The notes beneath the pieces are model-generated. The model did not search any database and was not told where the DNA came from. It saw nothing but the letters and a program-made list of their open reading frames with translations. A program made the position numbers and the translations under genes. Positions 6,808 to 39,660 of a DNA stretch of 45,755 bases are shown piece after piece. The DNA comes from Prevotella sp. (lineage in GTDB: Bacteria > Bacteroidota > Bacteroidia > Bacteroidales > Bacteroidaceae), in contig JALEVZ010000048.1 of the NCBI GenBank assembly GCA_022788105.1, positions 1-45,755 of the forward strand, read 5' to 3'. Numbering within the stretch: the stretch's first letter is position 1; each line of letters opens with the position of its first letter.

Positions 6808-6836
6808 TTTTGCCCTTTAACAAAGTAGAGGGTGGT

Positions 6837-6986: not shown

Positions 6987-7069
6987 AGGCTTCTCAAGAA
7001 GAAGTTTTACCTTTTTACCCTTTTACCTTTAAATGAATGATTTAACAACTAATAATAAAACTTGCTGCT

Positions 7070-13413: not shown

Positions 13414-14904
13414 TTATTTGTTTAGCTTCCAGACGCAGCCGTCTTTGGTGTCCATCACCTCGAAGCCAGCGTCTTTGAGCGCGTCGCGTATCTGGTCGCA
13501 GGTACACCAGTCTTTGTTGGCGCGTGCCTTCGAACGGAGGTCGAGCACCATGTCTACCACTTTGCCAAATGCCTCTTCACGCTCGCCGCTGTCGGCGGAG
13601 CGGTCGTCGCGCAAGCCGAGCACGTCAAACGCGAAGGTGTGCATGGTGTCGGCGAGCAGCTTCAGGTCGTCAGCGCTGATGGTGGCCTTGTGGTCGACGA
13701 GCTTGTTCACCGTGGTGCATGCCTCGAACAGATGGCTGATGACCTGCGGTGTGGCGAGGTCGTCGTTCATGGCGTCGTAGCATTTGTCTGCCAATGTGGT
13801 GGCGAGGCGGTGGGTGTCAGCGTCGCTCTCTGTGGCGGTCTTCACGCGGCAGAGGTCGGCAATGCCGTTCATCAGGCGCTCCAGTCCCTTCTCGCTTGCC
13901 ATGAGTGCTTCGTTGGAGAAGTCTACGGTGCCGCGGTAGTGGGCGGAGAGTATGAAGAATCGTATGGTCATGGGCGAGTACGCCTTGTCAAGCGAGGGGT
14001 GTGTGCCCTTGAAGAACTCTTCGAGTGTGATGAAGTTGCCGAGGCTCTTGCCCATCTTCTGTCCGTTGATGGTGAGCATGTTGTTGTGCATCCAGTAGTG
14101 CACCATCTGGTCGCCCTGCGACGCCACAGCCTGTGCTATCTCGCACTCGTGGTGTGGGAACACGAGGTCCATGCCGCCACCGTGTATGTCGAAGTGTGCG
14201 CCGAGGTATTTGCGACCCATCGCCGTACACTCGCAGTGCCATCCTGGGAAGCCGTCGCTCCAGGGGCTGGGCCAGCGCATGATGTGTTCGGGCTGTGCCT
14301 TCTTCCACAGTGCGAAGTCGGCCTGGTTGCGCTTCTCGCCTACTCCGTCGAGCTCTCGCGACGCGTCTTTCACGTCGTCGAGGTTGCGACCAGAGAGTAT
14401 GCCGTAGTGGTGCTGCTCGTTATATTTCTTTACGTCGAAATATACCGAACCGTTGCTTATGTATGCAAAGCCGTTGTCGAGTATCTGCTGCACGAGCTGC
14501 TCCTGCTCTATGATGTGGCCCGTAGCGTGAGGCTCAATGCTGGGTGGCAACACGTTGAGGGCGTCCATGGCGGCGTGGTAGCGGTTGGTGTAGTACTGCG
14601 CTATCTCCATTGGTTCGAGCTGCTCGAGGCGCGCCTTCTTCTCTATCTTGTCATCGCCGTCGTCGCCGTCGTGCTCCAGGTGTCCCACGTCGGTGATATT
14701 GCGCACGTAGCGCACCTTGTAGCCGATGTGTTTGAGGTAGCGGAAGAGTACGTCAAACGTGATGGCGGGACGCGCGTGTCCCAGATGCGGGTCGCCGTAG
14801 ACGGTCGGTCCGCAGACATACATGCCCACATTGGGTGCATGCATCGGTTTGAACAGTTCTTTCTGACGAGTAAGCGTGTTGTATATAATTAGAGGCTGTG
14901 CCAT
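13414..14904 (-). CDS. cysS: Cysteinyl-tRNA synthetase
   Basis: A 496-residue class I aminoacyl-tRNA synthetase that charges tRNA-Cys. Visible are the HIGH-type motif in [11 protein letters not shown] (about 36-46), the zinc-site cysteines and histidines ([25 protein letters not shown]) and the KMSKS-type loop [10 protein letters not shown]. The ORF track starts 43 codons upstream, but the family N-terminus is [18 protein letters not shown], so I place the start at 14904. The upstream extension lies over the promoter: a TAAGTTTGC box is 84 bp upstream on the minus strand. The 417-residue plus-strand ORF over it is a shadow. Confidence 0.97.
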
Positions 14905-14987
14905 AATATCACTTTTCCTATTGATAATGTTGCTTGTTGTTAGTTGCCTGAGATTGATTCTCTGTCTGCCACGGACAGGTTTCGGGT

Positions 14988-14996
14988 GCAAACTTA
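14988..14996 (-). promoter_or_regulatory. -7 promoter box for cysS
   Basis: Read on the minus strand this is TAAGTTTGC, matching TAnnTTTGC, about 84 bp before the chosen cysS start. Its position inside the longer ORF-track frame supports the shorter cysS start. Confidence 0.6.
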
Positions 14997-15183
14997 CAAA
15001 AAAAATTTGATTTAATGAAAAATAACTGTTCAATTTTTATGGCACGACTTACGAATGTGTCGTGTGGCAGCGGTGGAGTGGTGGGCTTGGTGGTTACTGG
15101 CAGTGTGGTGGTTGGTGTCTGCTGGCAGTGTGTGTATAGCATGGCGGCAGTTGTTGTGTGTGTTGTCTGCCGCCATGCGAGGT

Positions 15184-16119
15184 TTAGAGGTTTATGGTTT
15201 TGTCTACAAAGTAGCGTGGGCGTCGTTTCACTTCGGTATAAATCTTTCCGATATACACGCCTGTGATGCCCACGCCGGTGGTCACTACGCCGCCAATGAA
15301 CCACAACGACACGAGTATCGACGTCCAGCCCTCTATGGTGCGGCCTGTGAAGTGCTCGTACAGGGCGTAGACTATGATAATCAGCGCCACGAGCGTCATG
15401 GTGAGTCCTGCGAAGGTGATGAACTTCAGTGGCGCGGTGGAGAACGATGTGATGCCGTCGATGGAGAAGCTTATCATCTTCTTCAACGGATATTTAGACT
15501 CGCCAGCGGTGCGGGCGGTGCGGTCGTAGTAGACATATCCCTCGTTGAAACCCAGCTGCCGCACTATGCCACGCAGGAACATGTTGCGCTCGGGATATTG
15601 CATGAGAGCCTGCACGGCGCGGCGTGTCATCATGCGGAAGTCGGCGTGGTTGTAGAGCATGTTCTTGTCGGCGGTCTGCATCACGCGGTAAAACGCCTGT
15701 GCCGTGGTGCGTTTAAACCACGTGTCGGTCTTGCGCTCTTTCCTCACGCCGTAGACTATGTCGCAGCCTTGCAGCACCTGGCGTGCCATGTCTACGATGG
15801 CAGACTCGTCGTCTTGCAGGTCGGCGTCGATAGACACGGTGGCGTCGCACTTGTCGACAGCCTGTTCCAGTCCTGCCCACAGCGCGTTCTGGTGGCCTAC
15901 GTTATGGGCGAGCTTCAGTCCTGACACCTCGGGGTGACGGTCGGCGGCGTCGCTGATGAGTTGCCATGTGCGGTCGCGGCTGCCGTCGTCGACAAGCAGC
16001 AGACGTGCCTCCACCGACAGCTCGTCGCGGAGACGTGTGATGAGTGCTGTCAGTCGCTCCAACGACCACGGCAACACTTCTTCTTCATTGTAGCACGGAA
16101 TAACGATGTATAGTTTCAC
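15184..16119 (-). CDS. GT2 polyisoprenyl-phosphate glycosyltransferase (DPM1/GtrB-like)
   Basis: A 311-residue family-2 glycosyltransferase. A GT-A domain begins at the N-terminus (IVIPCYNEEEVL), with the nucleotide-binding LLLVDDGSRDRTW (about 40-52) and DXD-type SIDADLQDD (about 95-103). Two C-terminal transmembrane helices (about 235-255 and 267-290) place it in the GtrB/DPM1-like group that transfers a sugar from a nucleotide donor to a polyprenyl phosphate at the inner membrane, feeding cell-surface glycan or lipid-A decoration. Donor and acceptor are unknown. R1 copy B lies immediately upstream and cysS downstream. Confidence 0.9.
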   Translation of the reverse strand: MKLYIVIPCYNEEEVLPWSLERLTALITRLRDELSVEARLLLVDDGSRDRTWQLISDAADRHPEVSGLKLAHNVGHQNALWAGLEQAVDKCDATVSIDADLQDDESAIVDMARQVLQGCDIVYGVRKERKTDTWFKRTTAQAFYRVMQTADKNMLYNHADFRMMTRRAVQALMQYPERNMFLRGIVRQLGFNEGYVYYDRTARTAGESKYPLKKMISFSIDGITSFSTAPLKFITFAGLTMTLVALIIIVYALYEHFTGRTIEGWTSILVSLWFIGGVVTTGVGITGVYIGKIYTEVKRRPRYFVDKTINL

Positions 16120-16178
16120 CTTTATAGATTGTTTTTAATGTTTAGTCTAATCAATAGGGGGAGAAGGCGGCTTTCGGG

Positions 16179-16523
16179 AGCCCCTCTCCAGCTCTCCCCA
16201 CCGGGGAGAGGGCTTGGCTTCTTGGAGGGCTTTTCCTTGAGAGCCCTCTCCGTCTCACTTCGCTGGAAAGAGAGGAGCGGGCGCGTTTTGCTTGAGAGCC
16301 CTCTCCGTCTCACTTCGCTGGGGAGAGAGGAGCGGGCGCGGGGGCGTTTTGGTGGCGGCTGACGCCGCTGGTACTATCGGGATAGGGCGGCTGGCATTTC
16401 CAGCCTTACTAGATGTTCTAGATATTCTAGAAGGCGGCATTAGCCGCCTGACCAGAGGAATAGCTCCCTCCCACTGGCGACAGCCCTACCCTCTCCCCGG
16501 CTGGGGAGAGATGGAGAGGGGCT
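16179..16523. mobile_element. R1 element copy B (MITE-like)
   Basis: A 345-bp copy of the R1 element: left arm 16179-16212, right arm 16489-16523, inverted with respect to each other. Between them are two copies of a ~60-bp unit containing GAGCCCTCTCCGTCTCACTT, then the same hairpin series and GATGTTCTAGATATTCTAGA core as copies A and C. It sits between the GT2 and PAP2-like genes. The right arm is followed directly by further arm copies. Confidence 0.75.
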
Positions 16524-16683
16524 GTTTTTACCTTTAACCGACCATCTCCTCCATCAACGGCCCTCTCCCCGGCTGGGGAGAGACGGAGAGGGGCTGTTTT
16601 TACCTTTAACCGACCATCTCCTCCATCAACGGCCCTCTCCCCGGCTGGGGAGAGATGGAGAGGGGCTGTTTTTACCTTTTTAC
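16489..16683. repeat. 72-bp tandem repeats built on the R1 right arm
   Basis: Two full copies and one partial copy (starts 16489, 16561, 16633) of a 72-bp unit made of the R1 right arm plus GTTTTTACCTTTAACCGACC and CATCTCCTCCATCAACGG. The same unit occurs at 17789-17896 and 19797-19900. The last copy runs into TACCTTTTTACCC tracts that end just before the PAP2-like stop codon. Confidence 0.85.
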
Positions 16684-16713
16684 CCTTTTACCTTTTTACC
16701 TTTAAAAGTCCCT

Positions 16714-17337
16714 TTAAACATAGTTCGCCATTATCAGCACGAAGGCGACGGCTTGTCCTGTGAGAAATCCCGCCACCACCTGCCACAGCGTGTGTTGCAG
16801 GAGCACCATGCGACTTGTGCCCACCATGCCGCCAACGACGAACACCAGACACAGCCACCACATAGGGTTGAAGCCAAAGAGTATGGCAAACGCCTGCAGC
16901 GACCCTGCCACGCCACCTATCGCCGCGGTGTGGGTCGATATTTTCCACCAGATGTTTATCATGGCGCAGCACATCTGTATGGCGAGTGCCGCCATGAGTA
17001 TGATGGTCATAAAATGGGGTATGTGTCCTGTCTCCATGATGGTGTAGCACAGGGCGTAGCACATGATGGAGATGACGTATGGCACCATACGCTTCTCCTT
17101 GCGCCCCAGCTCCCACAGCGTCCAGCCGTGGTAGTGGCGGTAGAAACGTATGAGCAGCGTGGGCATGAGTATGGTGAACAGATACACCATGCCCACCACG
17201 CGCAGCTTGTATGCCAGCGGTGCAATGTTGAGGTAGCTGAACATGAACATCACCACAAATCCTACCAACGACAGGTAGAACGGTGTGAACACCATGCTCA
17301 GCACTCGTGCAGCCAATATAAGATGTTTCTCTTTCAT
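16714..17337 (-). CDS. PAP2-like integral membrane protein
   Basis: A 207-residue protein with about six transmembrane helices. The ORF track begins 60 codons upstream inside R1 sequence (MRRRGLSSKN...); the hydrophobic protein itself starts at MKEKHLILAARVLSM, so I place the start at 17337. PAP2-type motifs are partly present: KEKRMVP (about 79-85), WWKISTHTAAIGG (about 131-143) for the first histidine, and LLQHTLWQVVAG (about 178-189) for the second. The last has glutamine where classical PAP2 enzymes have the catalytic-relay aspartate. It is probably a lipid or isoprenoid phosphatase-like protein, possibly catalytically altered. R1 elements flank it on both sides. Confidence 0.75.
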   Translation of the reverse strand: MKEKHLILAARVLSMVFTPFYLSLVGFVVMFMFSYLNIAPLAYKLRVVGMVYLFTILMPTLLIRFYRHYHGWTLWELGRKEKRMVPYVISIMCYALCYTIMETGHIPHFMTIILMAALAIQMCCAMINIWWKISTHTAAIGGVAGSLQAFAILFGFNPMWWLCLVFVVGGMVGTSRMVLLQHTLWQVVAGFLTGQAVAFVLIMANYV

Positions 17338-17380
17338 ATATCCGAAACTCACACTATTAGAAGGAAGAGTGAAAAATAGA

Positions 17381-17820
17381 AGCCCCTCTCCAGCTCTCCC
17401 CACCGGGGAGAGGGCGGGCGCGAGCGCGTTTTTGCTTGAGAGTCTTCTCCGTCTCACTTCGCTGGGGAGAGAGGCGGGCGCGAGCGCGTTTTTGCTTGAG
17501 AGCCCTCTCCGTCTCACTTCGCTGGGGAGAGATGGGCGGGCGCGAGCGCGTTTTGCTTGAGAGCCCTCTCCGTCTCACTTCGCTGGGGAGAGAGGGGCGG
17601 GCGCGAGCGCGTTTTGGTGGCGGCTGACGCCGCTGGTGATAGTGAATAGTACGGATAGCAGAGCTATCCTTGCTAGAAATTCTAGGGCGGCTGGCATAGC
17701 CAGCCTTACTAGATGTTCTAGATATTCTAGGAGGCGGCATTAGCCGCCTGACTAGAGGAATATATCCCTCCCACTGGCGACAGCCCTACCCTCTCCCCGG
17801 CTGGGGAGACGGAGGGGGCT
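17381..17820. mobile_element. R1 element copy C (MITE-like, internally expanded)
   Basis: A 440-bp R1 copy: left arm 17381-17414, shortened right arm 17789-17820. It holds three head-to-tail ~60-bp units (starts 17415, 17475, about 17537) containing CGGGCGCGAGCGCGTTTT and a degenerate arm, then the three-hairpin core with an extra short insertion (AGTACGGATAGCAGAGCTAT) compared with copy B. A further arm copy follows at 17856-17890. It fills the rpoN to PAP2-like spacer. Confidence 0.75.
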
Positions 17821-17943
17821 GTTTTACCTTTAACCGCCCATCTCCTCCATCAACGACCCTCTCCCCGACTGGGGAGAGATGGAGAGGGGCTTTTTTACCT
17901 TTTTACCCTTTTACCTTTTTACCTTTAAAAGTCCCTTTAAAAA

Positions 17944-19512
17944 TCATTCTCTCCTCTGCTTCGCCGACGCTATGCCGAGCTGTTCGCGATATTTAGACAC
18001 GGTGCGGCGCGCCACGGGGCATCCGCGCTCCGCCATGAGTCGTGAGAGCGCTTCGTCGCTGTAGGGAGCGGACTTGTCTTCGTGGTCTACGATGTCGCGC
18101 AGCGTGAGTTTTATGCTGCGTGATGACAGCTCGTCGCCGTTCTCGCCCGTGAAGCTGGAGTTGAAGAAGAACTTCAGCGGGAACACGCCCCAGTTGGTCT
18201 GAACATATTTCACGCTGCACACGCGCGACACGGTAGATATGTCAAGCCCGGTCTTGGCGGCAATGTCTTTGAGCACCATGGGGCGCAGGTCTGCCTCGTC
18301 GCCGTCGGCGAAGAAGCGGCGCTGCCATTCCACGATGGCCGCCATGGTCTTGGTGAGCGTGGCGCGGCGCTGGCGTATCGCCTCAATATATCCTTGCGCC
18401 TTCTCCACCTTCTCCTTAGCGTAGAGCAGCGCCTCCTTGTCTTGACGGCTCATGCCGCGGCGGTTGTTGCGATAGGTCTCCACCATCTCTGCAAACGACG
18501 GCGACACCTTCAGCTCCGGCACCTCGCCACTGTTCAGATACATGCGTGTGGTGCCGTCGTCGAGCGTCTCCACCACAAAGTCGGGCGTCACCTGTTGCAG
18601 GCTGCGACCCTCCGCCTCGCCGAGTGCGGCGCCGGGCTTGGGGTTGAGGCGGCGTATCTCGTTGCGGAAGTCGTCGAACGTGTCGTCGCTCATGTGGTAG
18701 GTCTTGCGCAGCGCGTCCCAGTGTTTGGCTATGAAGTCTTTGTAGCTGTCGGTGAGGATGCGTGTGGTGAGGCGCACCACGGGTGTCTGCTCACGTCGCT
18801 GGAGCTGTAGCAGCAGACACTCGCGCAGGTCGGCGGCGCCGATGCCTGCCGGGTCGAAGGTTTTGAGCAGGTCCATCATACGCTGCACATCGGCGGGCGT
18901 ACACTCCACGTTTTGGAATATCTCTAACTCGTCGCACAGCGTGTCGGCGTCTTTGCGTAGCAGTCCGTCACTGTCGAGCGACCCTATGACATAGTCTATT
19001 ATAGAACATTCGCGCGGTGTGATGTCTTGTTCGCCCACCTGCTCGCGCAGTTTGTCGTAGAACGAAGTAGTGTCGCCCCATACCATCTCCTCATAGTCGG
19101 CGTTGTCGGTGGAGCTGTTGGGATGGAACGACGGTGGCATCTCGTCGTCGCGGCCTATACCTTCGAGGGCGTCGTCGAGGGCGGAGGCACGCTCCTCACG
19201 CTCGCGTTCGCGGCGATACTCCTCGTCGGGTGCCTGCTCACGGCTGTCGGTAGACATAGCGTCGCGGCTGTCGGCACTGACGGGGCCGCGGCTGTCGTCG
19301 CCGTCGGCAGTGCTCGCGTAGCCCTCTGCCTGGTCAAATCCGTCTGCCGACGCCACCTCCAGCGCCGGATTGTCGTCGAGCTCGGCGCGCACATTCTCCT
19401 CCAGCTCTGCCACGGGCATCTCTGTGAGGCGCACCTGTAGCATCTGTTGCTGCGTGAGGCGCTGCACCTGCTGGAGCTTCTGTTCCTGCGTCTGTATGAG
19501 TTCTTGAGCCAT
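17944..19512 (-). CDS. rpoN: RNA polymerase sigma-54 factor
   Basis: A 522-residue sigma-54. The glutamine/leucine-rich N-terminal activator-interaction region (LQQVQRLTQQQMLQV) is followed by an acidic linker (about 60-145), a core-binding domain, and the C-terminal DNA-binding domain ending with the RpoN box ARRTVSKYRE (about 501-510), which contacts the -24 promoter element. Length is normal. Sigma-54 promoters need an enhancer-binding ATPase; none is encoded in this window. A TACCTTTGC box lies upstream on the minus strand, giving a leader of ~190 nt that contains the R3 hairpin at 19617-19669. Confidence 0.97.
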   Translation of the reverse strand: MAQELIQTQEQKLQQVQRLTQQQMLQVRLTEMPVAELEENVRAELDDNPALEVASADGFDQAEGYASTADGDDSRGPVSADSRDAMSTDSREQAPDEEYRREREREERASALDDALEGIGRDDEMPPSFHPNSSTDNADYEEMVWGDTTSFYDKLREQVGEQDITPRECSIIDYVIGSLDSDGLLRKDADTLCDELEIFQNVECTPADVQRMMDLLKTFDPAGIGAADLRECLLLQLQRREQTPVVRLTTRILTDSYKDFIAKHWDALRKTYHMSDDTFDDFRNEIRRLNPKPGAALGEAEGRSLQQVTPDFVVETLDDGTTRMYLNSGEVPELKVSPSFAEMVETYRNNRRGMSRQDKEALLYAKEKVEKAQGYIEAIRQRRATLTKTMAAIVEWQRRFFADGDEADLRPMVLKDIAAKTGLDISTVSRVCSVKYVQTNWGVFPLKFFFNSSFTGENGDELSSRSIKLTLRDIVDHEDKSAPYSDEALSRLMAERGCPVARRTVSKYREQLGIASAKQRRE

Positions 19513-19616
19513 TGTGCTTTATATGGTGTCTGTTTCTGAATCTTTGTCTTGGGCGTGCAGAGCGTCACTGCGTCTTGGCTGTTGCAGCAAGCCACAGACC
19601 TGCACGCCTGTTGCTG

Positions 19617-19669
19617 AAGTTTCGCAAGCCGTAAACACGCTATTAGCATGTCTTAAACACGCGAAACTT
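19617..19669. repeat. R3 inverted-repeat element (AAGTTTCGC...GCGAAACTT), copy 1
   Basis: A 53-bp segment bounded by AAGTTTCGC (19617-19625) and its exact complement GCGAAACTT (19661-19669). It lies in the rpoN leader. The same end sequence occurs at 20140 and at 33155/33339. Confidence 0.7.
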
Positions 19670-19701
19670 AAACAATATTATAATATTGGTGTCTGCACAG
19701 T

Positions 19702-19710
19702 GCAAAGGTA
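19702..19710 (-). promoter_or_regulatory. -7 promoter box for rpoN
   Basis: The minus strand reads TACCTTTGC, matching TAnnTTTGC, with a T-rich stretch at the -33 distance. It lies ~190 nt upstream of the rpoN start. Confidence 0.6.
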
Positions 19711-19796
19711 GTGCAAAAAAACAAATAAGGAAAAAAAAGCACACTAATTTTTCGATGTCCCCTTTTTACCTTCCCTCCCATCTCCTCCATCCACGG

Positions 19797-19900
19797 CCCT
19801 CTCCCCGGCGGGGAGAGACGGAGAGGGGCTTTCTTTGCCTTTAACCTCCCATCTCCTCCATCAACGGCCCTCTCCCCGGCGGGGAGAGATGGCGCGGGAC
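19797..19900. repeat. Solo R1 arm units (71-bp tandem)
   Basis: One full and one partial copy of the R1-arm unit (starts 19797 and 19868), with the same CATCTCCTCCATCAACGG linker as the array at 16489-16683. No R1 core is present, so this is an arm-only remnant. Confidence 0.75.
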
Positions 19901-19971
19901 TGTTTTCGTTTTGTTAACACTGTGGTCCAAAAATAATTTCTTTATGGTAATATTATTTCCATACTTACCAC

Positions 19972-19980
19972 TACCTTTGC
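19972..19980 (+). promoter_or_regulatory. Possible promoter for the hypothetical/M15 peptidase pair
   Basis: TACCTTTGC matches the -7 consensus and lies 239 nt before the start at 20219. No good -33 element is visible. A leader from here would include the R3 hairpin at 20131-20186. Confidence 0.4.
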
Positions 19981-20130
19981 CACCGCAACAAAGCATAATG
20001 TTTAACCTATAAAAACCAAAACCATAAGAGACATGTAACACATACACACGCAGAACTACGCTTTATTTTCATGCACGTGTGTCCCCTCCCATCGTGGCGG
20101 GGGCACATTTTTAACTTTAAACTAACATCA

Positions 20131-20186
20131 TTTTAACTAAAGTTTCGCAAGTTCCTGCTTCAGCAAGAACTTGCTGTCAGTTAAAA
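20131..20186. repeat. R3 hairpin, copy 2, upstream of the hypothetical gene
   Basis: A nested hairpin: TTTTAACT (20131-20138) pairs with AGTTAAAA (20179-20186), and inside it GCAAGTTC (20147-20154) pairs with GAACTTGC (20167-20174). It begins AAGTTTCGC (20140-20148), as in the other R3 copies, and ends 33 nt before the start codon, so it could act in the 5' leader. Confidence 0.7.
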
Positions 20187-20218
20187 TTTTAATTAAAACA
20201 GAAAGGAAGAAAAGAAAA

Positions 20219-20662
20219 ATGATTCAAGCTAATCAGTTCGTAATATGTCATCTGCCGGAAGGCAAGAAGAGCATGCTATCACCCGAACAACTCGAAGAGG
20301 GCAAGCGACGACTCGTAAGCCAAGCCCTCGGGTGGCTAAACCTTGACGAGACGGCAAGGGCACAGTGGCTCGGCACGAAGACCGACCTACTGGAGATAGT
20401 GCGCTACGTCTATGAGTCGCAACTCGTAGTGGCAAAAGACGGGCGCCCGGCATCGTTTAGATGGCTCGCCATGATGTTTGCACAGAAGCTGCACACGAGC
20501 TTCGCCGACGACACTCTCTACCGTCTCAGCTACCAGGCGGAGAGTCGCAAGGGGGTCATCATGCCCACCATGTTGTGGCGCTACACGTGGCGCATGTTCG
20601 TGGCGATGAACCCCGACCCGCTCCAAAACCTCGTCGTCTGTCTCTCGCCACACAAGGCTTAA
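20219..20662 (+). CDS. Hypothetical protein, 147 aa
   Basis: I do not recognise the family. I start it at the ATG following AAAGGAAGAAAAGAAAA, giving MIQANQFVICHLPEGKKS; the ORF-track start 16 codons upstream lies in the R3 hairpin. The protein is soluble, helix-rich and without a signal peptide; an Arg/Trp-rich segment (PTMLWRYTWRMF) lies near the C-terminus. The M15 peptidase gene follows after 14 nt, so the two are probably co-transcribed. In Bacteroidales, small cytoplasmic proteins next to cell-wall hydrolase genes are common, but that gives no function here. Confidence 0.7.
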   Translation: MIQANQFVICHLPEGKKSMLSPEQLEEGKRRLVSQALGWLNLDETARAQWLGTKTDLLEIVRYVYESQLVVAKDGRPASFRWLAMMFAQKLHTSFADDTLYRLSYQAESRKGVIMPTMLWRYTWRMFVAMNPDPLQNLVVCLSPHKA

Positions 20663-20676
20663 CCCTCTCTCCTACC

Positions 20677-21273
20677 ATGAACACAAACATAAAAACAAGT
20701 ACAAACACAACCATGAACACGAATATAAAGAATTTGAACACAAAAACTTTGAACATGAACATAAACACCTTGTCACGCGCCGACGCCGTACACGCCAAGT
20801 CGCGCATAGCCGCAGCAGAACGAGCACGCATAGCGCCACCCGACACCCGTCTGTCCGAACACTTCACGCTGAGAGAGTTTACCGACTCTGGCACGGCGCG
20901 ACAACACAACATCGACAACACGCCGCAGCCCATACATATAGAACGGCTACGCGCCCTCTGCCAGCAGTCGCTCGAACCGCTCCGCCGACGGTTTGGCGCG
21001 ATACGCGTCACAAGCGGATATCGCAGTCAGCGCCTCAACGCCCTCGTGGGTGGCGCGCCGACAAGCCAACACACCATGGGCGAGGCGGCAGACATACACA
21101 CCGGCGGACGCGAGACGTCGCAGAAGATGTATGACTACGCACGCCAGCATGTGCCTTACGACCAGCTCATACTCGAGCGCAAAGTCTCGCACGGCACCTA
21201 TTGGCTGCACCTCAGCCTACGCTCCGACCGCCCCGGCAACCGCCACGAGGCGTTCCAGCTCACGGTGAAGTAG
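20677..21273 (+). CDS. M15-family zinc peptidase (D-Ala-D-Ala carboxypeptidase-like)
   Basis: A 198-residue protein of the peptidase M15_3 type (D,D-/L,D-peptidase fold acting on peptidoglycan peptides). Zinc-site motifs are seen: VTSGYRSQRLNALVGG, then SQHTMGEAADIH (His and Asp ligands, about 130-141) and the final histidine in GTYWLHLSLR (about 170-179). There is no signal peptide, so export by another route or a phage/lysis-type origin is possible. The first ~30 residues are low-complexity (MNTNIKTSTNTTMNTNI) with several in-frame ATGs (20677, 20713, 20752), so the start is uncertain. It is convergent with the paralogue pair downstream. Confidence 0.85.
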   Translation: MNTNIKTSTNTTMNTNIKNLNTKTLNMNINTLSRADAVHAKSRIAAAERARIAPPDTRLSEHFTLREFTDSGTARQHNIDNTPQPIHIERLRALCQQSLEPLRRRFGAIRVTSGYRSQRLNALVGGAPTSQHTMGEAADIHTGGRETSQKMYDYARQHVPYDQLILERKVSHGTYWLHLSLRSDRPGNRHEAFQLTVK

Positions 21274-21298
21274 CAAACGAAAAACGCGCGCTGTAAAA

Positions 21299-21336
21299 AG
21301 GCTCACAAGTTAGCGGCGACACTAACCTGCGAGCCT
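21299..21336. terminator. Nested hairpin between convergent genes
   Basis: AGGCTC (21299-21304) pairs with GAGCCT (21331-21336) and, inside it, GTTAG (21309-21313) with CTAAC (21322-21326). It lies between the M15 peptidase stop and the convergent paralogue stop. There is no T-run, so intrinsic termination is doubtful. Confidence 0.4.
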
Positions 21337-21360
21337 CGTGCGAGCGTCTGATGACAAACG

Positions 21361-22674
21361 CTATTTCCTCGGAAACGTTGTCTTGTCCTTTACCATCATT
21401 CCATTTACGTCTCCAATAAAGCCCATCGACTTGGCATAGTCGGGGAGGTATTTAACAATTTTGACATCCTCGCCGCCAAACACAATGTTTTCGGGAAATC
21501 CGATGATAGAGCGCATATAGTAGTTGAAAGCTATGCTGCTTATCGTGGAGCAGTCTTCTGCAAACGAATAGCTCACCATGCAGCCCCAGTTAAGGGGCGA
21601 CGACTCTCGGGTATAGTTTAAGGTTTCGCCATTCTGCAACTTCGGACCGTCTGATGACCTGAAAGCAAAGTTAGCAGATTGCCTATATGGGAAATATTCT
21701 ATCTTGAAGCCATTGCAGGTCTGCGACTTAAACAGCAGTTGTGGGTCAAGACTCTTTATAGACATCGGCGGTATGGCTATCACGCGCTGCGAATAGGTGG
21801 TGTTCACCGTGGTATTGCTCTTGTTGCTTCCCACACCTATGCCACCAGCAAGGGTGCCTATTGCTCCGCCTACGCCAAGTGCTCCTGCTACAGCGCCGAG
21901 ATTCACCCCGACACCTGAACCGTCGGTCTGGCTTGACGAACTGGAAGAGGGAATGTAATAAGCCTCTGCTATGCCGTTGCGCATGAAGAAGCTGTTGCCC
22001 AAGTCTATATATATCGTTCTGTTCGTCTTGTTTTTTACTTGAATCTGCATCGCTGGTTTGTCATAATTAACCAGATTCTCCGAGAACGTCAATTTGTTTA
22101 CGCCGTTCTGACTAATAAGCACATCCAGCTTCGTATTCAACCCATTCGGATAATTGAGTTGTCCTGTCTTGGTGATTATCTCGATGTCGTCATTTACCAA
22201 CTGCGAGTCCTCCCCATAGCCTATTACTGCATACAGCAGTCCGGCATTGCCGCCCTTCTTACCAACATACTCTGGAGCATAAGTGTTAGAGTAAGCTATC
22301 AGCTCTTCGCTGCGTTTCTGCGACGCCGCGCTGACCGTAGCCTGGGGAGCACCCTGCGAAGCCACAGCCGATTGCTGCGCAGGAGAAGATGCCTGCGCAG
22401 GAGAAGGAGTAGAAGAAGTTGCGCTGCTTGGCTGGGCGCCATTGCCCAGGTCATACTTCGTGCCGTCCTTTCGTTTTATCATAAACACGTCAGCCTTGTT
22501 GATGCGCAAAATCGCAGCATCTGCCTTATCCTCTGATTTATAAAACACGGCATTGGTGCCAACCTCTACTTCGTACACATTCTTCACATCGCCATTATTG
22601 GTTATCAACACATCCTGTGCATACGCGCTTACCCCTGCCATCAGAGAGCAAGCAAAAAATATTAGCTTCTTCAT
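21361..22674 (-). CDS. Secreted hypothetical protein, tandem paralogue 1
   Basis: A 437-residue exported protein of unknown function. The signal peptide is MKKLIFFACSLMAGVSAYAQ. A ~60-residue beta-rich domain follows (DVLITNNGDVKNVYEVEVG ... IKRKDGTKYDLGNG), which resembles the short 'trigger factor-like' surface domain common in Bacteroidota exported proteins. Then come a Ser/Pro/Ala-rich linker (PSSATSSTPSPAQ), a region with VKNKTNRTIYIDLGNSFFMRNG, a glycine/alanine-rich stretch (VNLGAVAGALGVGGAIGTLAGG, about 256-277) that could enter membranes, and a beta-rich C-terminus. It lies 42 bp downstream of its paralogue, without a promoter of its own, so the pair is likely one transcript. Confidence 0.8.
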   Translation of the reverse strand: MKKLIFFACSLMAGVSAYAQDVLITNNGDVKNVYEVEVGTNAVFYKSEDKADAAILRINKADVFMIKRKDGTKYDLGNGAQPSSATSSTPSPAQASSPAQQSAVASQGAPQATVSAASQKRSEELIAYSNTYAPEYVGKKGGNAGLLYAVIGYGEDSQLVNDDIEIITKTGQLNYPNGLNTKLDVLISQNGVNKLTFSENLVNYDKPAMQIQVKNKTNRTIYIDLGNSFFMRNGIAEAYYIPSSSSSSQTDGSGVGVNLGAVAGALGVGGAIGTLAGGIGVGSNKSNTTVNTTYSQRVIAIPPMSIKSLDPQLLFKSQTCNGFKIEYFPYRQSANFAFRSSDGPKLQNGETLNYTRESSPLNWGCMVSYSFAEDCSTISSIAFNYYMRSIIGFPENIVFGGEDVKIVKYLPDYAKSMGFIGDVNGMMVKDKTTFPRK

Positions 22675-22716
22675 GAATGCTTGATTTTCAAGATATATAT
22701 AAACTGCTATTAATTC

Positions 22717-24033
22717 TTATTTGTCGCCACGCTTGAATACATCATTCTTTGGAAGGAGTTTGCTCACGCCTTCCACCACCTGACCGACAAACGCTGTGCA
22801 CTTTTTAAAATCAGGAATAACCTTTGGAAGCTTTGTACAGATAAATTTCGGATAGCCACTGGATTTTGCAAAACCAACAATACGGCGCAAATGCAAGTTA
22901 AACGACAGGCTTTTCTCATTTTGGCATGTCTCCGTGTCTGAATAAGAAACTAAGAAAGCAAACTTGATTGGAGATGTACCTTCTGAGAAATCATGAGTCT
23001 CACCATTCATATAGTTTCCATCTGCCTTTGTGGCAAAAGAAAATGCAGGAACCCAATTGTTAGGTCTCGAAGAATCAATATACAAGCCGTCGCAAGCTTT
23101 ATACTTATATGGATCCGGAAACAGAAGTTGGTTATCAAGCTCCTTGACAGACATTGGCGGGACGGCAACGACACGCTGGGAAAAAGTTGTACTAACGGAA
23201 CCAGACGTATTTCCACCACCTACATTTACTCCACCGGCAAGCGTTCCTAATGCTCCACCGACTCCAATAGCACCGGCTACGGCTCCAAGGTTAACACTTG
23301 CTCCGGAGGAACTTGAGCTACTCGTTGATGTTGAAGTAGGAATATAATATGCTGTAGCTACTCCGTTTCGCATTATGAAGGAATTTCCTAAATCGACATA
23401 AAGTGTCCTGTTTGTCTTGTTTTTAAGACACAGCTTAAAAACGGGGTTAGAATAATAGGCACTAAAGTCAATAAAAGTAGCCCCACCATCACCATTATTC
23501 AGTGCACCAACCAAACTATTACGTGCAGCAGCAGCAGTTAAAGCACTTGAACCAATAAAACATTCAATTTCCAAGTCATCATTAACTAACTGTGAACCGT
23601 TGCCGTAGCCCATGATACAAAACACACGGTCGCAGTCTTTCTTCGTGTCCGTGCCGACATACTCCGGATTAAAGTCATTAGCCTGGCTGATTATCTCATC
23701 ATTCCTCTTCTTAGACTCTGCAGAAATCGATGCCGTCTGCGAAGACGGTGCCTGCGCAGGAGAAGGAGTAGAAGAAGTTGCGCTGCTTGGTTGGGCGCCA
23801 TTGCCCAGGTCATACTTCGTGCCGTCCTTCCGCTTTATCATTATCACGTCGTCTTTCTTTATGCGCAATGTTGGAGCATCAGCCTTGTCTGCCTCTTTAT
23901 AAAACACCGTAGAAGGCCCGACCTCAACATCATACACCTTCTTCACATCACCCTCTTGGGTTATCAACACATCCTGTGCATACGCGCTTACCCCTGCCAT
24001 CAGAGAGCAAGCAAAAATCATAAGTTTCTTCAT
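22717..24033 (-). CDS. Secreted hypothetical protein, tandem paralogue 2
   Basis: A 438-residue paralogue with the same layout: signal peptide MKKLMIFACSLMAGVSAYAQ, beta-rich N-domain, Ser/Pro linker, LKNKTNRTLYVDLGNSFIMRNG block, Gly-rich hydrophobic stretch (VNLGAVAGAIGVGGALGTLAGG), and SQRVVAVPPMSVKELDNQLLF. DNA is nearly identical to paralogue 1 in the signal peptide and linker, but the middle and 3' parts are diverged and more AT-rich. A strong promoter precedes it (24056-24086). The function is unknown; a surface or periplasmic role is likely from the signal peptide. Confidence 0.8.
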   Translation of the reverse strand: MKKLMIFACSLMAGVSAYAQDVLITQEGDVKKVYDVEVGPSTVFYKEADKADAPTLRIKKDDVIMIKRKDGTKYDLGNGAQPSSATSSTPSPAQAPSSQTASISAESKKRNDEIISQANDFNPEYVGTDTKKDCDRVFCIMGYGNGSQLVNDDLEIECFIGSSALTAAAARNSLVGALNNGDGGATFIDFSAYYSNPVFKLCLKNKTNRTLYVDLGNSFIMRNGVATAYYIPTSTSTSSSSSSGASVNLGAVAGAIGVGGALGTLAGGVNVGGGNTSGSVSTTFSQRVVAVPPMSVKELDNQLLFPDPYKYKACDGLYIDSSRPNNWVPAFSFATKADGNYMNGETHDFSEGTSPIKFAFLVSYSDTETCQNEKSLSFNLHLRRIVGFAKSSGYPKFICTKLPKVIPDFKKCTAFVGQVVEGVSKLLPKNDVFKRGDK

Positions 24034-24243: not shown

Positions 24244-24366
24244 CACACAGATTCGCTGTGGAAACGCGCGCTGTGAGAGAGGGAGGGAGTAGCGTGACGA
24301 CACCAGCGAAGACTATCGCTTAACTTAAAAAATGCCTTATTCTGTCATTTTCTCAAATATAAATGT

Positions 24367-24374
24367 TATTTTTG
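24367..24374 (+). promoter_or_regulatory. -7 box abutting the DUF4294 start (leaderless?)
   Basis: TATTTTTGC starts at 24367, only 14 nt before the ATG at 24381. With a start site usually ~7 nt after the box, the mRNA would begin at or just before the ATG. Confidence 0.55.
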
Positions 24375-24380
24375 CACCAC

Positions 24381-25028
24381 ATGACAAGAATAGTCTTAAT
24401 CGCCATATTATCGTTGCTCGCCACGCTGCACGCCGCAGCGCAGACCGACCATGTGCAGCTACGCGTACACCCCGAAGACCGCGAAGTGAACATGGACGAC
24501 CCCACGTTTGTGCCCATGGTGAAGGTGGGCAAAGCCCTCGACCGCGGCGACAGCATACAGTACGTGGAGCTGAACCCCGTGTACTGCTACCCCACGCCCG
24601 TGTTCAAAAACGCGAAGCAGCGCGCAGCATACAACCGCCTGGTCTACAACGTGAAGAAGGTGCTGCCCATAGCCAAAGAGGTGAACACCCTCATCATAGA
24701 GACCTACGACGTGTTGCAGACCCTCCCCGACAAACGGGCGAAAGACCAGCACCTGAAAATTGTGGAACGAGAGATAAAGCGCGAATACACGCCACGCATG
24801 AAAAAGCTGACCTACCAGCAGGGCAAGCTGCTCATAAAGCTCGTCTACCGCGAGTGCAACTCATCCTCATACCAGCTCATACAGGCGTTTCTCGGACCCA
24901 TACGCGCCGGCTTCTACCAGGCGTTCGCCGCACTCTTCGGCGCCAGCCTCACCAAGAAATATGACCCCGAAGGCACCGACCGCATGACCGAGCGCGTAGT
25001 CAGAATGGTGGAGGCGGGGCAGATATAA
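24381..25028 (+). CDS. DUF4294-family secreted protein
   Basis: A 215-residue member of the Bacteroidota family DUF4294, of unknown function. I place the start at MTRIVLIAILSLLATLHAAAQ, a clear signal peptide; the ORF-track start six codons earlier lies within the promoter box. The conserved C-terminal block is seen: YNRLVYNVKKVLPIAKEV, YTPRMKKLTYQQGKLLIKL, then AFLGPIRAGFYQAFAALFG and KYDPEGTDRMTERVVRMVE. The helical, basic character and signal peptide suggest a periplasmic protein. The restriction-modification genes begin 70 nt downstream on the same strand. Confidence 0.9.
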   Translation: MTRIVLIAILSLLATLHAAAQTDHVQLRVHPEDREVNMDDPTFVPMVKVGKALDRGDSIQYVELNPVYCYPTPVFKNAKQRAAYNRLVYNVKKVLPIAKEVNTLIIETYDVLQTLPDKRAKDQHLKIVEREIKREYTPRMKKLTYQQGKLLIKLVYRECNSSSYQLIQAFLGPIRAGFYQAFAALFGASLTKKYDPEGTDRMTERVVRMVEAGQI

Positions 25029-25098: not shown

Positions 25099-26064
25099 AT
25101 GACAAAAGCGAAACCATTTATCAAGTGGGTCGGCGGTAAGAGCCAACTCATAAACCAGCTGGACGAGAAACTGCCAGCCGACTTTGATAATTGGCACAAT
25201 GTGACATACATCGAACCGTTTGTAGGCGGAGGAGCCATGCTCTTCTACATGCTCCAACGTTACCCCAACATCCGCCAGGCGGTAATCAACGACATAAACC
25301 CAGACCTCACCACCTGCTACAAAACGGTAAGAGACCACGCGCAGCTGCTTGTCGAGTCGCTGAAAGACATGGAGCAGACCTACCTCTCCATACTTGACGA
25401 AGAGCAGCGAAAAGAGTTTTTTCTCACCATACGCGAGCGCTACAACAGCAAGTCTGCTGACGCAATAGAAAACACCACCATGTTCTTCTTCCTAAACAGA
25501 ACATGCTTCAACGGGCTGTATCGTGTCAACAAGAAAGGACTCTTCAACGTGCCTTTCGGCAGATACAAAAGACCTACCATCTGCGACCCCGACACCATAC
25601 GCAAAGACAGCGAACTGCTACAACGGGTCGAGATATTGACTGGCGACTTTGAAAAGACATTTACACACGCTCAAGGACAGACGTTTTTCTACTTCGACCC
25701 GCCATACCGCCCACTTAGCAACACGTCAAGCTTCAACAGCTATGTGAAAGAAGCGTTCAACGACGATGCACAAATACGGCTGAAGACCTACTGCGACCGC
25801 ATCAGCGACAAAGGCCACGAATTTATGCTCAGCAACTCTGACAGCAGGAGCAAGAACACGGAAGACGACTTCTTCGACCAACTCTATGCCGCCTACCACA
25901 TAGACCGAGTGTGGGCGTCGCGCAGCATAAACTCAAACCCTGAGAAGAGAGGCAAGCTGACCGAGATAGTAGTGCGCAACTATCACGCCACGAAAGCCGC
26001 GCCCAACACCTGCACACACAAACCCATACCCTGTCTGCAAGCAGTAGAGGCGGAAGCCTATTAA
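25099..26064 (+). CDS. dpnM: GATC adenine-N6 methyltransferase, Dam/DpnM type
   Basis: A 321-residue alpha-class DNA adenine methyltransferase (Dam/M.DpnM/M.MboA group), expected to methylate A in double-stranded GATC. Motif order is alpha-class: FIKWVGGKSQLI (about 6-17, motif X), YIEPFVGGGAML (about 36-47, SAM-binding motif I), and FYFDPPYRPLS (about 197-207, catalytic motif IV). I use the second ATG (MTKAKPFIKW); the ORF-track start is eight codons earlier. It is the first gene of a three-gene cassette followed by the endonuclease after 46 nt. The specificity call rests on family resemblance and on the DpnII-like endonuclease next to it. Confidence 0.93.
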   Translation: MTKAKPFIKWVGGKSQLINQLDEKLPADFDNWHNVTYIEPFVGGGAMLFYMLQRYPNIRQAVINDINPDLTTCYKTVRDHAQLLVESLKDMEQTYLSILDEEQRKEFFLTIRERYNSKSADAIENTTMFFFLNRTCFNGLYRVNKKGLFNVPFGRYKRPTICDPDTIRKDSELLQRVEILTGDFEKTFTHAQGQTFFYFDPPYRPLSNTSSFNSYVKEAFNDDAQIRLKTYCDRISDKGHEFMLSNSDSRSKNTEDDFFDQLYAAYHIDRVWASRSINSNPEKRGKLTEIVVRNYHATKAAPNTCTHKPIPCLQAVEAEAY

Positions 26065-26110
26065 GGCACAAACGTGCAGTCACAACCAGTAATCCATAAC
26101 CTATTGACAT

Positions 26111-27055
26111 ATGTTTATTGACAAGACACCAAGCGAACGAATAGAGATATTCACGCAAAACCTATTGCCCACAAACAGGGGCTTCAACTACTACGTAGAC
26201 TGGTCAAACGTCGGCGGCTACGACCATCTACTCGTTGAGATACACGCCATAGACGTATTGATCGCCGCTTCAGACGACGATTTCTACCCCAAATTCAAGA
26301 CCTTACTACAGCGACTGCCCACGACAACAGCGCTGTTCCCGTTGCTTTTCGGACTGGCAAAGGAGGAGCGCAAGAAGCTACACAAGGGCAAGAACGCGCT
26401 GCTCATCATTCAAGACGAAATAGACAGCGCCGACAACCTGGAGTTTCGCTTCCCTCTCAAGGCGGAGGCGCTGACAGACGAAGACATAGACAACTACTAC
26501 CTATTCTTCGTACAGATAGGGCTAAAACACCTGTACCAACACATCATAGAGAAAAGCACGGCAGACTACATTGCTGGCGTGCTCGTAGGGCTTGACTCCA
26601 ACGGCAGAAAGAACAGGGGCGGCATGGCCTTTGAGTTGGCATGTATGCCCATTTTTGAGAAAGTGTGTAGCAAACACAAGCTCATACTGCTGTCGCAAAA
26701 GAAGTTCAAGGAGCTGAGAAAATATGGTTTCGACATCTCCAAAGACGTGGAAAACAGAAAGGCAGACTTTATAGTCGTGGATCGTGAAAACAGAAAAGCG
26801 ATGAACTTTGAAGTGAACTTCTTCAACGGCACCGGCTCTAAGCCAGAGGAGATAATCGACTCGTACATCACACGACAAAACAATCTGGCACAGATCGGCA
26901 TAGCGTTTTCGCTGGTCACCGACGGTAACGACTGTTGGCAAAACGCACAAAACCAACTGAAAAAAGGCTTCCGACACATGAACTATCTGCAAAACTTCTA
27001 CATGCTGAAACGCGGCATGCTGGAGGAGATAATAAAAGAAGTGTTTAGCAAATGA
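26111..27055 (+). CDS. dpnB: Type II restriction endonuclease, DpnII/MboI family
   Basis: A 314-residue endonuclease resembling R.DpnII and R.MboI, which cut unmethylated GATC. Family landmarks are the N-terminal NYYVDWSNVGGYDHLLVEIHAID, LVGLDSNGRKNRGGMAFEL (about 156-174), and the probable catalytic core KADFIVVDRENRKAMNFEVNFF (about 216-237), a PD-(D/E)xK-like arrangement with a non-canonical last residue, as in this family. Length is normal and the frame is intact, so the system looks functional. Its stop overlaps the start of the second methyltransferase by 4 nt (ATGA), indicating translational coupling. Confidence 0.92.
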   Translation: MFIDKTPSERIEIFTQNLLPTNRGFNYYVDWSNVGGYDHLLVEIHAIDVLIAASDDDFYPKFKTLLQRLPTTTALFPLLFGLAKEERKKLHKGKNALLIIQDEIDSADNLEFRFPLKAEALTDEDIDNYYLFFVQIGLKHLYQHIIEKSTADYIAGVLVGLDSNGRKNRGGMAFELACMPIFEKVCSKHKLILLSQKKFKELRKYGFDISKDVENRKADFIVVDRENRKAMNFEVNFFNGTGSKPEEIIDSYITRQNNLAQIGIAFSLVTDGNDCWQNAQNQLKKGFRHMNYLQNFYMLKRGMLEEIIKEVFSK

Positions 27056-27930
27056 TAACATCTTACTACAAATCCCCATCCAACGACTTCACCATCATAC
27101 AGGGCGACTGCGTAGACACGCTGTCAAAGTTTAAGTTCGGCTTTGACATGGTGTTTGCAGACCCACCCTACTTCCTATCTGGCGGCGGCATAAGCGTACA
27201 AAGCGGCAAGATAGTGTGCGTAGACAAAGGCGAATGGGACAAACCCATCACACCCGAAGATATGGACGCCTTTAACCTGCGATGGCTTGCAGCATGCCGC
27301 GACCATATGAAAGACAACGCCACCATCTGGATCTCTGGCACACACCACAACATATTCAGCGTGCAACAACAGCTGATCAAGCTCGGATTTAAGATTCTGA
27401 ACGTCATAACATGGGCTAAGACCAACCCACCACCAAACATCTCGTGCCGATACTTCACATACAGCACCGAATTTATAATATGGGCACGCAAAAGCCCGAA
27501 GGTGGCACACTACTTCAACTACGAACTGATGAAGGAGCTGAACGGCAACAAACAGATGACCGACGTGTGGCATCTGCCAGCCATAGGCAAGTGGGAGAAG
27601 TCGTGTGGCAAACACCCCACACAGAAGCCGCTGGGTGTGCTGGCACGGCTAATACAGGCGAGTACAAAGCCTGGAGCGTGGATACTCGACCCCTTTAGCG
27701 GCAGCGCTACGACAGGCATAGCCGCCAACCTGTTGGGCAGACGCTATCTCGGTCTGGAAACAGAGACAGAATTTCTTGCCATGAGCAAGGCGCGGAGGAC
27801 CGAACTTGAAAATGCCGCCACACGGGGCGCCTATCTCGAACGACTGGTCAAAGCTCGACACATACTGCCACCTGAAGGTCTGTTCGCGTCAGACAACACC
27901 AACCCCTATTACGGCGTACCGTGGATATAG
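27052..27930 (+). CDS. dpnA: Second adenine methyltransferase, DpnA/MboC type
   Basis: A 292-residue beta-class N6-adenine methyltransferase. Motif IV comes first (MVFADPPYFLSGGGISV, about 33-49), then the SAM-binding motif DPFSGSATTGIAAN (about 222-235) after the HPTQKPLGVLARL segment, the order of beta-class enzymes. M.DpnA of the pneumococcal DpnII system is of this type and also methylates single-stranded GATC, which helps incoming transformed DNA survive; that role is by analogy. It overlaps the endonuclease gene by 4 nt. Gene order here (MTase, endonuclease, second MTase) matches my recollection of the MboI system and differs from pneumococcal dpnM-dpnA-dpnB. Confidence 0.92.
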   Translation: MITSYYKSPSNDFTIIQGDCVDTLSKFKFGFDMVFADPPYFLSGGGISVQSGKIVCVDKGEWDKPITPEDMDAFNLRWLAACRDHMKDNATIWISGTHHNIFSVQQQLIKLGFKILNVITWAKTNPPPNISCRYFTYSTEFIIWARKSPKVAHYFNYELMKELNGNKQMTDVWHLPAIGKWEKSCGKHPTQKPLGVLARLIQASTKPGAWILDPFSGSATTGIAANLLGRRYLGLETETEFLAMSKARRTELENAATRGAYLERLVKARHILPPEGLFASDNTNPYYGVPWI

Positions 27931-28034
27931 ACGTGCCATCGCCACCTCTGTCCTACCACTTCACTTCCACACCCCACCGCCCTCGCCACCACAGCTATTG
28001 AGCAACGCGAACAAGCCGTAATGACCTCGCGAAA

Positions 28035-28132
28035 GGGGCGTAGTGAGAAGCCCGAAGGGGCGTAGTGAGAAGCCCAAAGGGGCGTAGTGAGAAGCCCGAA
28101 GGGGCGTAATGGCGCCGCCACTACGCCCCTTT
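28035..28132. repeat. R4 22-bp tandem repeats ending in a hairpin
   Basis: Three head-to-tail copies (28035, 28057, 28079) of GGGGCGTAGTGAGAAGCCCGAA, then a variant that folds back as GGGGCGTA-n-TACGCCCC (28101-28129). It lies just after the restriction-modification cassette. The same motif, reversed, occurs at 39661-39734. The rest of 27931-28332 holds only the GH3 promoter. Confidence 0.85.
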
Positions 28133-28332: not shown

Positions 28333-29841
28333 ATGAGCTTGACAAGCATTGTGGGCAAGGCGTTCCTTCCCAGACAGATAAAGCTGCAACGGCACATCAC
28401 CGATGCGGAGACTTTACAGGCAACGGTGCTGAGACATCTGCTGCAGCGCGCTGCCAACACCGAATATGGCCGCAACCACCTTTTCAACAACACACGCTCT
28501 TACGACGACTTCGCACGCAACGTGCCTGTCAACACCTACGAGGAGCTGAAGAGCGACATCGACCGCATGCGCCACGGCGAGAGTGACGTGTTGTGGCCCG
28601 GACAGGTGAAGTGGTATGCCAAGTCGTCGGGCACGACCAACGACAAGAGCAAGTTCATACCTGTCTCGCAGGAGGGTCTGCAGCACATCCACTACCAGGG
28701 TGGCAAAGACGTGGTGGCGCTCTATCTGCGCAACAACCCGCATAGCCGACTGTTCGACGGACGCAGCCTCATACTCGGTGGCAGCCACTCGCCCAACTAC
28801 AATCTGCCTGGCTCGCTGGTCGGCGACCTGAGCGCCATACTGATTGAAAACATCAATCCGCTCGCCAACCTCGTGCGTGTGCCGAAGAAGCAGACGGCGC
28901 TGCTCTCCGACTTTGAGGTGAAGCGCGACCGCATAGCTCGCGAGACGCTCGGCAAGAACGTGACCAACATCTCTGGTGTGCCGTCGTGGATGATGAGCGT
29001 GCTGGTGCGTGTGCTCGAGTTGTCGGGCAAGGAGCACATCGAGGAGGTGTGGCCCAACCTGGAGGTGTTCTTCCACGGAGGCATCGCCTTCACACCCTAT
29101 CGCTCACAGTATGAGAAGCTCATCACCTCGCCGAAGATGCACTACATGGAGACATACAACGCCTCGGAAGGATTCTTCGGCATACAAAACGACCCGTCGG
29201 ACAAGTCCATGCTGCTCATGCTCGACTACGACGTGTTCTACGAGTTCATGCCCGTCGACCAGGTAGGCATGCCCAACCCCACCGTCGTGCCGCTCACGGG
29301 TGTGGAGCTGAACAAAAACTACGCCATGCTCATCAGCACGTCGTGCGGACTGTGGCGCTACATGATTGGCGACACGGTGATGTTTACCTCGCGCGACCCA
29401 TACAAGTTTGTCATCACCGGACGCACCAAATATTTCATCAACGCCTTCGGCGAAGAGCTTATACAAGACAACGCCGAGAACGGTCTGCTCGAGGCATGCC
29501 GCGAGACGGGCGCCGAGGTGAAGGAATACACTGCCGCGCCAGTGTTCATGGACCAGAACGCGAAGTGCCGCCACCAGTGGGTCATAGAGTTTGCGAAGCT
29601 CCCCGACTCGATTGAACACTTCGCCGACGTGCTCGACAAGAGTCTGCAACAAATCAACTCCGACTATGAGGCGAAGCGCTTCCACGACATCACGCTGCAA
29701 CACCTCGAGGTGGTGGTGGCACGCCAGGGACTGTTCGACGACTGGTTGAAGTCGAAGGGCAAGCTCGGCGGACAACACAAGGTGCCGCGACTGTCAAACA
29801 ACCGCACCGTGATAGATGAGGTGTTGGAGATGAACAAGTGA
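28333..29841 (+). CDS. GH3 auxin-responsive-promoter-family protein (acyl-adenylate-type enzyme)
   Basis: A 502-residue bacterial GH3-family protein of the adenylate-forming (ANL-like) superfamily. In plants GH3 enzymes join amino acids to small carboxylic acids such as auxin; the substrate of the Bacteroidota proteins is not established to my knowledge. Adenylate-forming motifs are present: the phosphate-binding loop YAKSSGTTNDKSKFIP (about 96-111), METYNASEGFFGIQND (about 272-287), and TGRTKYFINAFGEELIQDN (about 360-378). Length is full. It has its own promoter box and stands between the R4 repeats and the IR-flanked R8 element, which begins at its stop codon. Confidence 0.92.
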   Translation: MSLTSIVGKAFLPRQIKLQRHITDAETLQATVLRHLLQRAANTEYGRNHLFNNTRSYDDFARNVPVNTYEELKSDIDRMRHGESDVLWPGQVKWYAKSSGTTNDKSKFIPVSQEGLQHIHYQGGKDVVALYLRNNPHSRLFDGRSLILGGSHSPNYNLPGSLVGDLSAILIENINPLANLVRVPKKQTALLSDFEVKRDRIARETLGKNVTNISGVPSWMMSVLVRVLELSGKEHIEEVWPNLEVFFHGGIAFTPYRSQYEKLITSPKMHYMETYNASEGFFGIQNDPSDKSMLLMLDYDVFYEFMPVDQVGMPNPTVVPLTGVELNKNYAMLISTSCGLWRYMIGDTVMFTSRDPYKFVITGRTKYFINAFGEELIQDNAENGLLEACRETGAEVKEYTAAPVFMDQNAKCRHQWVIEFAKLPDSIEHFADVLDKSLQQINSDYEAKRFHDITLQHLEVVVARQGLFDDWLKSKGKLGGQHKVPRLSNNRTVIDEVLEMNK

Positions 29842-39285: not shown

Positions 39286-39660
39286 GACCCCACCACTACC
39301 AAACACTATCACTATACCCCAAATTCGTCGCCAACCGATGACAATGAGCAGCAATCCCCCCTTCAAAGGCAATATTCTTGTCAATTTTGCGTCTTTTGCA
39401 AATGCGGTCCCAAGCCCGCAGGAGCTTATGACCTTAACGAGGGGGAAAACTTGCCGGGGTGGTTTGCGCAAAGAGAAAAGATCAAGACGGTGGTCTTCGA
39501 TGCTTCGTTTGCCAATGCAAGACCAAAGAGCTGCTATGAGTGGTTCTGCTTGACGTGTAAAGAAAACTTACAGGCATTTTGGAACAAAGAAACATTGGGA
39601 TGAAAGCGAAAGGGTACATTGTGACTTTGCTTGGTAGTCACACTCCCATTGTCAAACGGC

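Follow-up and report, generated by a model that had tools for sequence, protein, structure and literature searches.

Within the window (the whole stretch of 45,755 bases analysed here), three genes on the forward strand make up a predicted DpnII/MboI-type restriction-modification cassette directed at GATC. These genes, their neighbors and a stretch devoid of GATC are as follows:

24363-25028, forward strand: upstream neighbor, a conserved Bacteroidales gene that is not adjacent to the downstream neighbor in relatives
25099-26064, forward strand: M1, predicted DpnM/Dam-type (alpha, D12) GATC adenine methyltransferase, 321 amino acids (PF02086, 4.5e-62)
26111-27055, forward strand: R, predicted DpnII-family endonuclease, 314 amino acids (PF04556, 3.2e-63, full length)
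27052-27930, forward strand: M2, predicted DpnA-type (beta, N6_N4_Mtase) adenine methyltransferase, 292 amino acids (PF01555, 1.4e-53)
28333-29841, forward strand: downstream neighbor, GH3 family (OlsH-like; PF03321/PF23572)
12176-23111, no strand: GATC-free stretch of 10.9 kb with rpoN, cysS and other chromosomal genes

A DpnII-type cassette and its surroundings

All three cassette reading frames are open, and the start of M2 overlaps the stop of R. M1 scores 278 bits against TIGR00571 (dam; cut-off 115), carries the motifs FVGGGA and DPPY, and has as its best solved structure 2DPM, the DpnM protein of the DpnII system (1.2e-55). M2 carries the motifs DPPYFLSGGG and DPFSGSATTG, and its solved relatives include CcrM (2.5e-53) and entries named DpnA (2.9e-26); we infer its specificity for GATC from its context. 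Residues of R that are invariant across 41 homologues from both branches of the family include D152, Y153, D162, R166, K167, N168, R169 and E175, together with D219, E234-V-N-F and T270-D-G, a pattern that fits an unchanged GATC specificity. Homology thus recovers the complete cassette proposed in a sequence-only reading of this DNA: an intact PF04556 nuclease, a Dam/DpnM-type methylase in the same operon and a second, DpnA-type beta methylase. R and M1 were the only PF04556 and Dam matches in a profile search of the genome, and a search of the same genome for DpnI and MutH yielded no match.

The cassette resembles the DpnII/MboI-type systems of S. pneumoniae (dpnM, dpnA, dpnB) and the homologous system of a lactococcal plasmid, which likewise combine alpha and beta adenine methylases with a PF04556 nuclease in a tight operon; as noted, DpnM is the nearest relative of M1 in the PDB. 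It differs in its gene order (M1-R-M2) and in R, whose branch is only about 24-30% identical to the matches on lactococcal and staphylococcal plasmids. In Prevotella intermedia, Pin25611FII similarly places a GATC methylase beside an MboI-like nuclease; that methylase is active (Gm6ATC; PMC5608340), whereas the one in the window is predicted. In P. intermedia 17F, a region carrying a second GATC methylase gene stands in place of the lost nuclease (PMC5608340); the window instead has a nuclease, one distantly related within that family. By their resemblance to these systems, M1 would methylate GATC in duplex DNA and R would cut unmethylated GATC; M2 may protect incoming single-stranded DNA, by analogy with pneumococcal DpnA, which methylates single strands (PMC3573125).

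The two genes flanking the cassette lie apart in every relative in which both could be placed (empty-site comparison), and the downstream GH3 gene is found in genus relatives at 68-82% identity but at other places. Right behind the cassette, at 28033-28108, is a 22-base tandem repeat (AAGGGGCGTAGTGAGAAGCCCG); a similar 22-base GGGGC/GTAGTGAG array lies at 39659-39729 in the opposite orientation, and both arrays are intergenic.

GATC avoidance in the genome and across the genus

The forward strand of the window contains exactly 24 GATC sites, matching the approximate count made by eye in the sequence-only reading. A maximum-order Markov model predicts 93.4 (observed/expected ratio, O/E, 0.26) rather than the roughly 180 assumed in that reading, making the depletion 4-fold, not 7-fold. 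It extends genome-wide: in a 542-kb sample of further contigs from this genome (2.49 Mb in 130 contigs, 90% complete), 277 sites were observed against 1307 expected under the Markov model (O/E 0.21). Coding sequence contained 234 sites against 1217 expected from synonymous codon permutation of 368 genes (0.19), and non-coding DNA 42 against 171 (0.25), so that GATC is under-represented by both nulls. Every NGATCN flanking-base context was depleted. The effect is specific to the tetramer, as had been supposed, rather than a mere shortage of GAT or ATC, and with all contexts depleted we reject a hexanucleotide cause (BamHI, BglII or BclI-like). No GATC occurs between 12172 and 23112, in agreement with the gap of about 12.2-23.1 kb described earlier; because a run of this length has a probability of about 0.07 at the window's own GATC rate, it is no separate feature.

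GATC is not the only depleted tetramer. CATG, TCGA, GCGC and AGCT were close to their normal frequency in the genome sample, but CTAG (O/E 0.035) and GGCC (0.37) were strongly depleted and CCGG (0.49) moderately so. GGCC was at 0.25 in the window against 0.37 in the genome sample. A GGCC restriction system was sought in the genome and no match was found; the sole C5 methylase lies on a short contig (C39) among phage-like neighbors. Although CTAG shows a 28-fold depletion genome-wide, it is clustered in the window, where all 23 copies fall within two intergenic repeat regions (6667-8021 and 16409-17752), some spaced at 8-9 bases and others within a hairpin-bearing repeat (GGCGGCTGGCAT...CAGCC, GGCGGCATTAGCCGCC). 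The far higher frequency of CTAG in the window had raised the suspicion of a mis-binned contig, which we rejected given that 23 of 23 copies lie in repeats and that window and genome correlate at 0.93 in their tetranucleotides.

To place this genome among its relatives, we used a single stretch, 20 kb long at most, per genome for 59 genus relatives (two of the 59 being runs of N), plus the loci of ten further DpnI carriers. In this comparison, in which most genomes are represented by one stretch, assemblies are incomplete and relatedness is uncorrected, the median GATC O/E was 0.32 (44 genomes), and among 16 palindromes only CTAG (0.13) was rarer. Median values were 0.31 for DpnII carriers (n=8), 0.29 for DpnI carriers (n=14) and 0.35 for genomes in which neither was found (n=45), a non-carrier being defined by no PF04556 or PF06044 match in an incomplete assembly, where other GATC nucleases could be hidden. 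The comparison of genomes with and without the cassette, proposed in the sequence-only reading, thus revealed no association of depletion with carriage, either for DpnII (p=0.63, the window genome being included) or for DpnI (p=0.50). Individual relatives ranged from 0.02 to 0.97, with non-carriers at the low extreme (0.02-0.04) and one carrier at 0.97. Around the DpnI gene of one relative (locus L204, genome G196), 17.3 kb of readable sequence contains no GATC at all, with 51 expected.

Because non-carriers are equally depleted and carriage is unrelated to depletion, avoidance is a property of the genus and not of its present carriers, and we therefore do not claim causation by this system. 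The earlier view that the host had long been exposed to GATC restriction remains plausible; attribution of the avoidance to the present cassette is unsupported. Rusinov and colleagues found that related genomes share avoided sites whatever systems they now encode and read this as a trace of lost systems; they also reported that GATC avoidance extends to DpnI-type systems, and that CTAG is rare in most genomes independently of any system (PMC4687349). Our data are alike in that, within one genus, GATC is under-represented whether genomes carry DpnII, DpnI or neither. They differ in being a direct measurement, across a genus, of the absence of an association; the main text of that paper is without Bacteroides or Prevotella. 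Relatives also encode such systems, with turnover visible: DpnII matches over the cut-off occur in 59 of 398 genus genomes and DpnI matches in 14 of 398, alongside the remnants and stubs described below.

That the depletion is genus-wide and independent of current restriction-modification content would fit an origin other than restriction (mutational bias, repair or codon preference, for example), and the system-independent rarity of CTAG offers a parallel. Mismatch-repair nicking or a mutational bias might have made the depletion; MutH-like matches are rare in relatives and absent from this genome. The depletion of GGCC with no matching system found also counts against a restriction-based account. 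However, the codon shuffle and the Markov model agree, genes and non-coding DNA are affected alike, palindromes of like composition (CATG, TCGA and AGCT) are not depleted, and the wide variation among close relatives suggests an intermittent force. We consider a non-restriction cause unlikely. The explanation that we favor, with reasonable confidence, is an old, genus-wide avoidance of GATC, with the current cassette, recombinant and predicted to be of DpnII type, as one occupant. Repeated residence of GATC restriction systems (of DpnII type, alongside others of DpnI type) probably built this avoidance; recovery of base composition would be far slower than the gain, recombination and loss of such systems. 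The imprint need not be the work of the present cassette.

Origin and site content of the cassette

Compared with the 34 genus cassettes that we read, the window cassette is 51-76% identical in M1 and 59-89% in M2, but only 20-30% in R. R is instead 57-71% identical to the nucleases of cassettes from Bacteroides, Phocaeicola, other Bacteroidales and one Oscillospiraceae genome (71% for locus L152), and its branch appears in no other genus genome among the cassettes read. At the DNA level, genus cassettes align to M1 and M2 and leave a gap over R, whereas L152 covers all three genes. Phylogenies gave the same picture: R formed a clade with seven non-genus sequences (support 100), and M2 fell within a clade of genus M2s (support 100/100). 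Forcing M2 together with the M2s of R's partners, in groups named from the R tree, was rejected by the AU test (p = 3e-5; 3e-69 with L152 alone).

With R of a non-genus type, M2 of genus type and a joint history rejected, the cassette is, as judged from these comparisons, a mosaic of two sources that arose by recombination within the cassette. Either R, with or without M1, entered, or M2 did, and both routes would amount to intra-cassette recombination; the M1 tree fits entry of R alone as well as entry of M1 with R. An isospecific nuclease from the other DpnII branch would thereby have been placed on genus-type methylase genes. A viral source for R was sought: viral contigs contained none, and there was one weak phage match. 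In another relative, a single cassette contains a tandem pair of DpnII genes (L160; G432:C23:2788-4418).

The five GATC sites in the cassette lie within R (26260, 26780 and 26893) and M2 (27330 and 27375), within 1-2 bases of the positions reported earlier; M1 has none. Codon shuffling predicts 6.5 sites (O/E 0.76, against 0.19 for host genes), so that the cassette is indeed near the random rate, as had been claimed, and depletion like that of the host would leave about 1.2-1.9 (P = 0.009-0.044, for a single segment chosen post hoc). Yet at least five sites also occur in 3.5% of 2343 overlapping 2.83-kb stretches of the genome, and the apparent lack of depletion is a small-number effect. GATC-dense host segments carry ordinary genes, encoding for example a SusD protein, a TPR protein and glycogen phosphorylase, and taking such segments as a sign of recent DNA is unsupported. 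Across eight other carriers, cassette O/E tracks host O/E (rho 0.74, p 0.04), and the median over the 34 genus cassettes, 0.38, compares with 0.32 over genus genomes (p 0.20).

These data bear on the idea that the depletion was produced by this very cassette during a long stay in the lineage, its own five sites being tolerated or exempt. The cassette is present and apparently intact, the depletion is strong, and cassette and host genes differ in O/E; however, non-carriers are as depleted, the R branch is confined to this genome among the genus cassettes read, host segments can be equally site-rich, and genus cassettes show no general exemption. We regard this idea as improbable, and the exemption suggested by the sequence-only reading is not supported.

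Acquisition of the whole cassette, recently and from a host without GATC avoidance, would account for five sites where host-like depletion predicts fewer than two, and R does come from outside the genus. Against it, the cassette is as poor as the host in other sites (GGCC, 2 against 13.5 expected; CCGG, 1 against 5.7; CTAG, 0 against 3.8), its GC content is 50% against 51-53%, M2 is of genus type, and the partners of R in its clade have GATC-poor flanks themselves (0.02-0.58) and R genes with 0-1 GATC. Because GGCC is as poor as in the host, the whole cassette does not look foreign, and there is no sound case for an exemption or for a foreign source of the whole; we give such an acquisition little credence. 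The earlier description of the cassette as a newer arrival thus fails for the whole and survives for one part, the endonuclease gene or the genes around R having been exchanged. The signature of avoidance left by lost restriction was already known; the new detail here is the mosaic cassette.

Possible exchange of GATC nucleases on a methylase scaffold

DpnI cuts methylated GATC. The 14 genus genomes with a DpnI match over the cut-off do not overlap the 59 with DpnII (probability of no overlap, 0.10). In genome G001 (locus L212), DpnI, a KilA-N protein and small frames lie between a stub of M1 (residues 2-95) and a stub of M2 (residues 136-292). A DpnI 98% identical to this one occurs in a different species (G106, L213), accompanied by an identical M2 stub and by an M1 from which the usual C-terminus is missing. 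In five other genomes (G174, G170, G387, G052 and G138), DpnI adjoins an M2 homologue that is intact and has catalytic motifs, and in two of these (G174 and G138; L202:8480-9406 and L210:7792-8808) an N-terminal DpnD/PcfM domain is fused to the intact DpnA-type methylase. M2s from DpnI loci are scattered among those of DpnII cassettes in the M2 tree, which suggests repeated interconversion. Decaying cassettes in G017 (L218) and G203 (L219) keep M1 but only a remnant of R. A further decaying GATC cassette (L168, G142) has an R gene with an in-frame TGA.

As in pneumococcus, where DpnI and DpnII are alternative cassettes (PMC3573125), complementary systems alternate among relatives, and DpnI of the genus occurs in the same methylase scaffold; unlike there, it may sit between stubs of both methylases or beside an intact DpnA-type methylase. 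It is possible, and we propose it tentatively, that the two methylase genes serve as a reusable scaffold on which GATC nucleases (the two DpnII branches, about 24% identical, and DpnI) are exchanged, a nuclease that cuts methylated DNA coexisting with its cognate methylase if the latter is active. An active GATC methylase next to DpnI would be harmful unless restricted; if the methylases at DpnI loci are active, methylation may, for example, be limited to incoming single-stranded DNA or to a switchable state. Expression of the second GATC methylase of P. intermedia 17F in E. coli conferred no protection (PMC5608340).

Site avoidance, on this evidence, points to long exposure of a lineage to GATC restriction and does not identify the present cassette as the maker of the imprint, two things that are often conflated. 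Isospecific nucleases, even DpnI with its opposite logic, may be exchanged on a common methylase scaffold in Bacteroidales. This is relevant to how a host could survive the exchange of one such system for another: replacement by a system for the same site would be tolerable because it requires no new methylation pattern.
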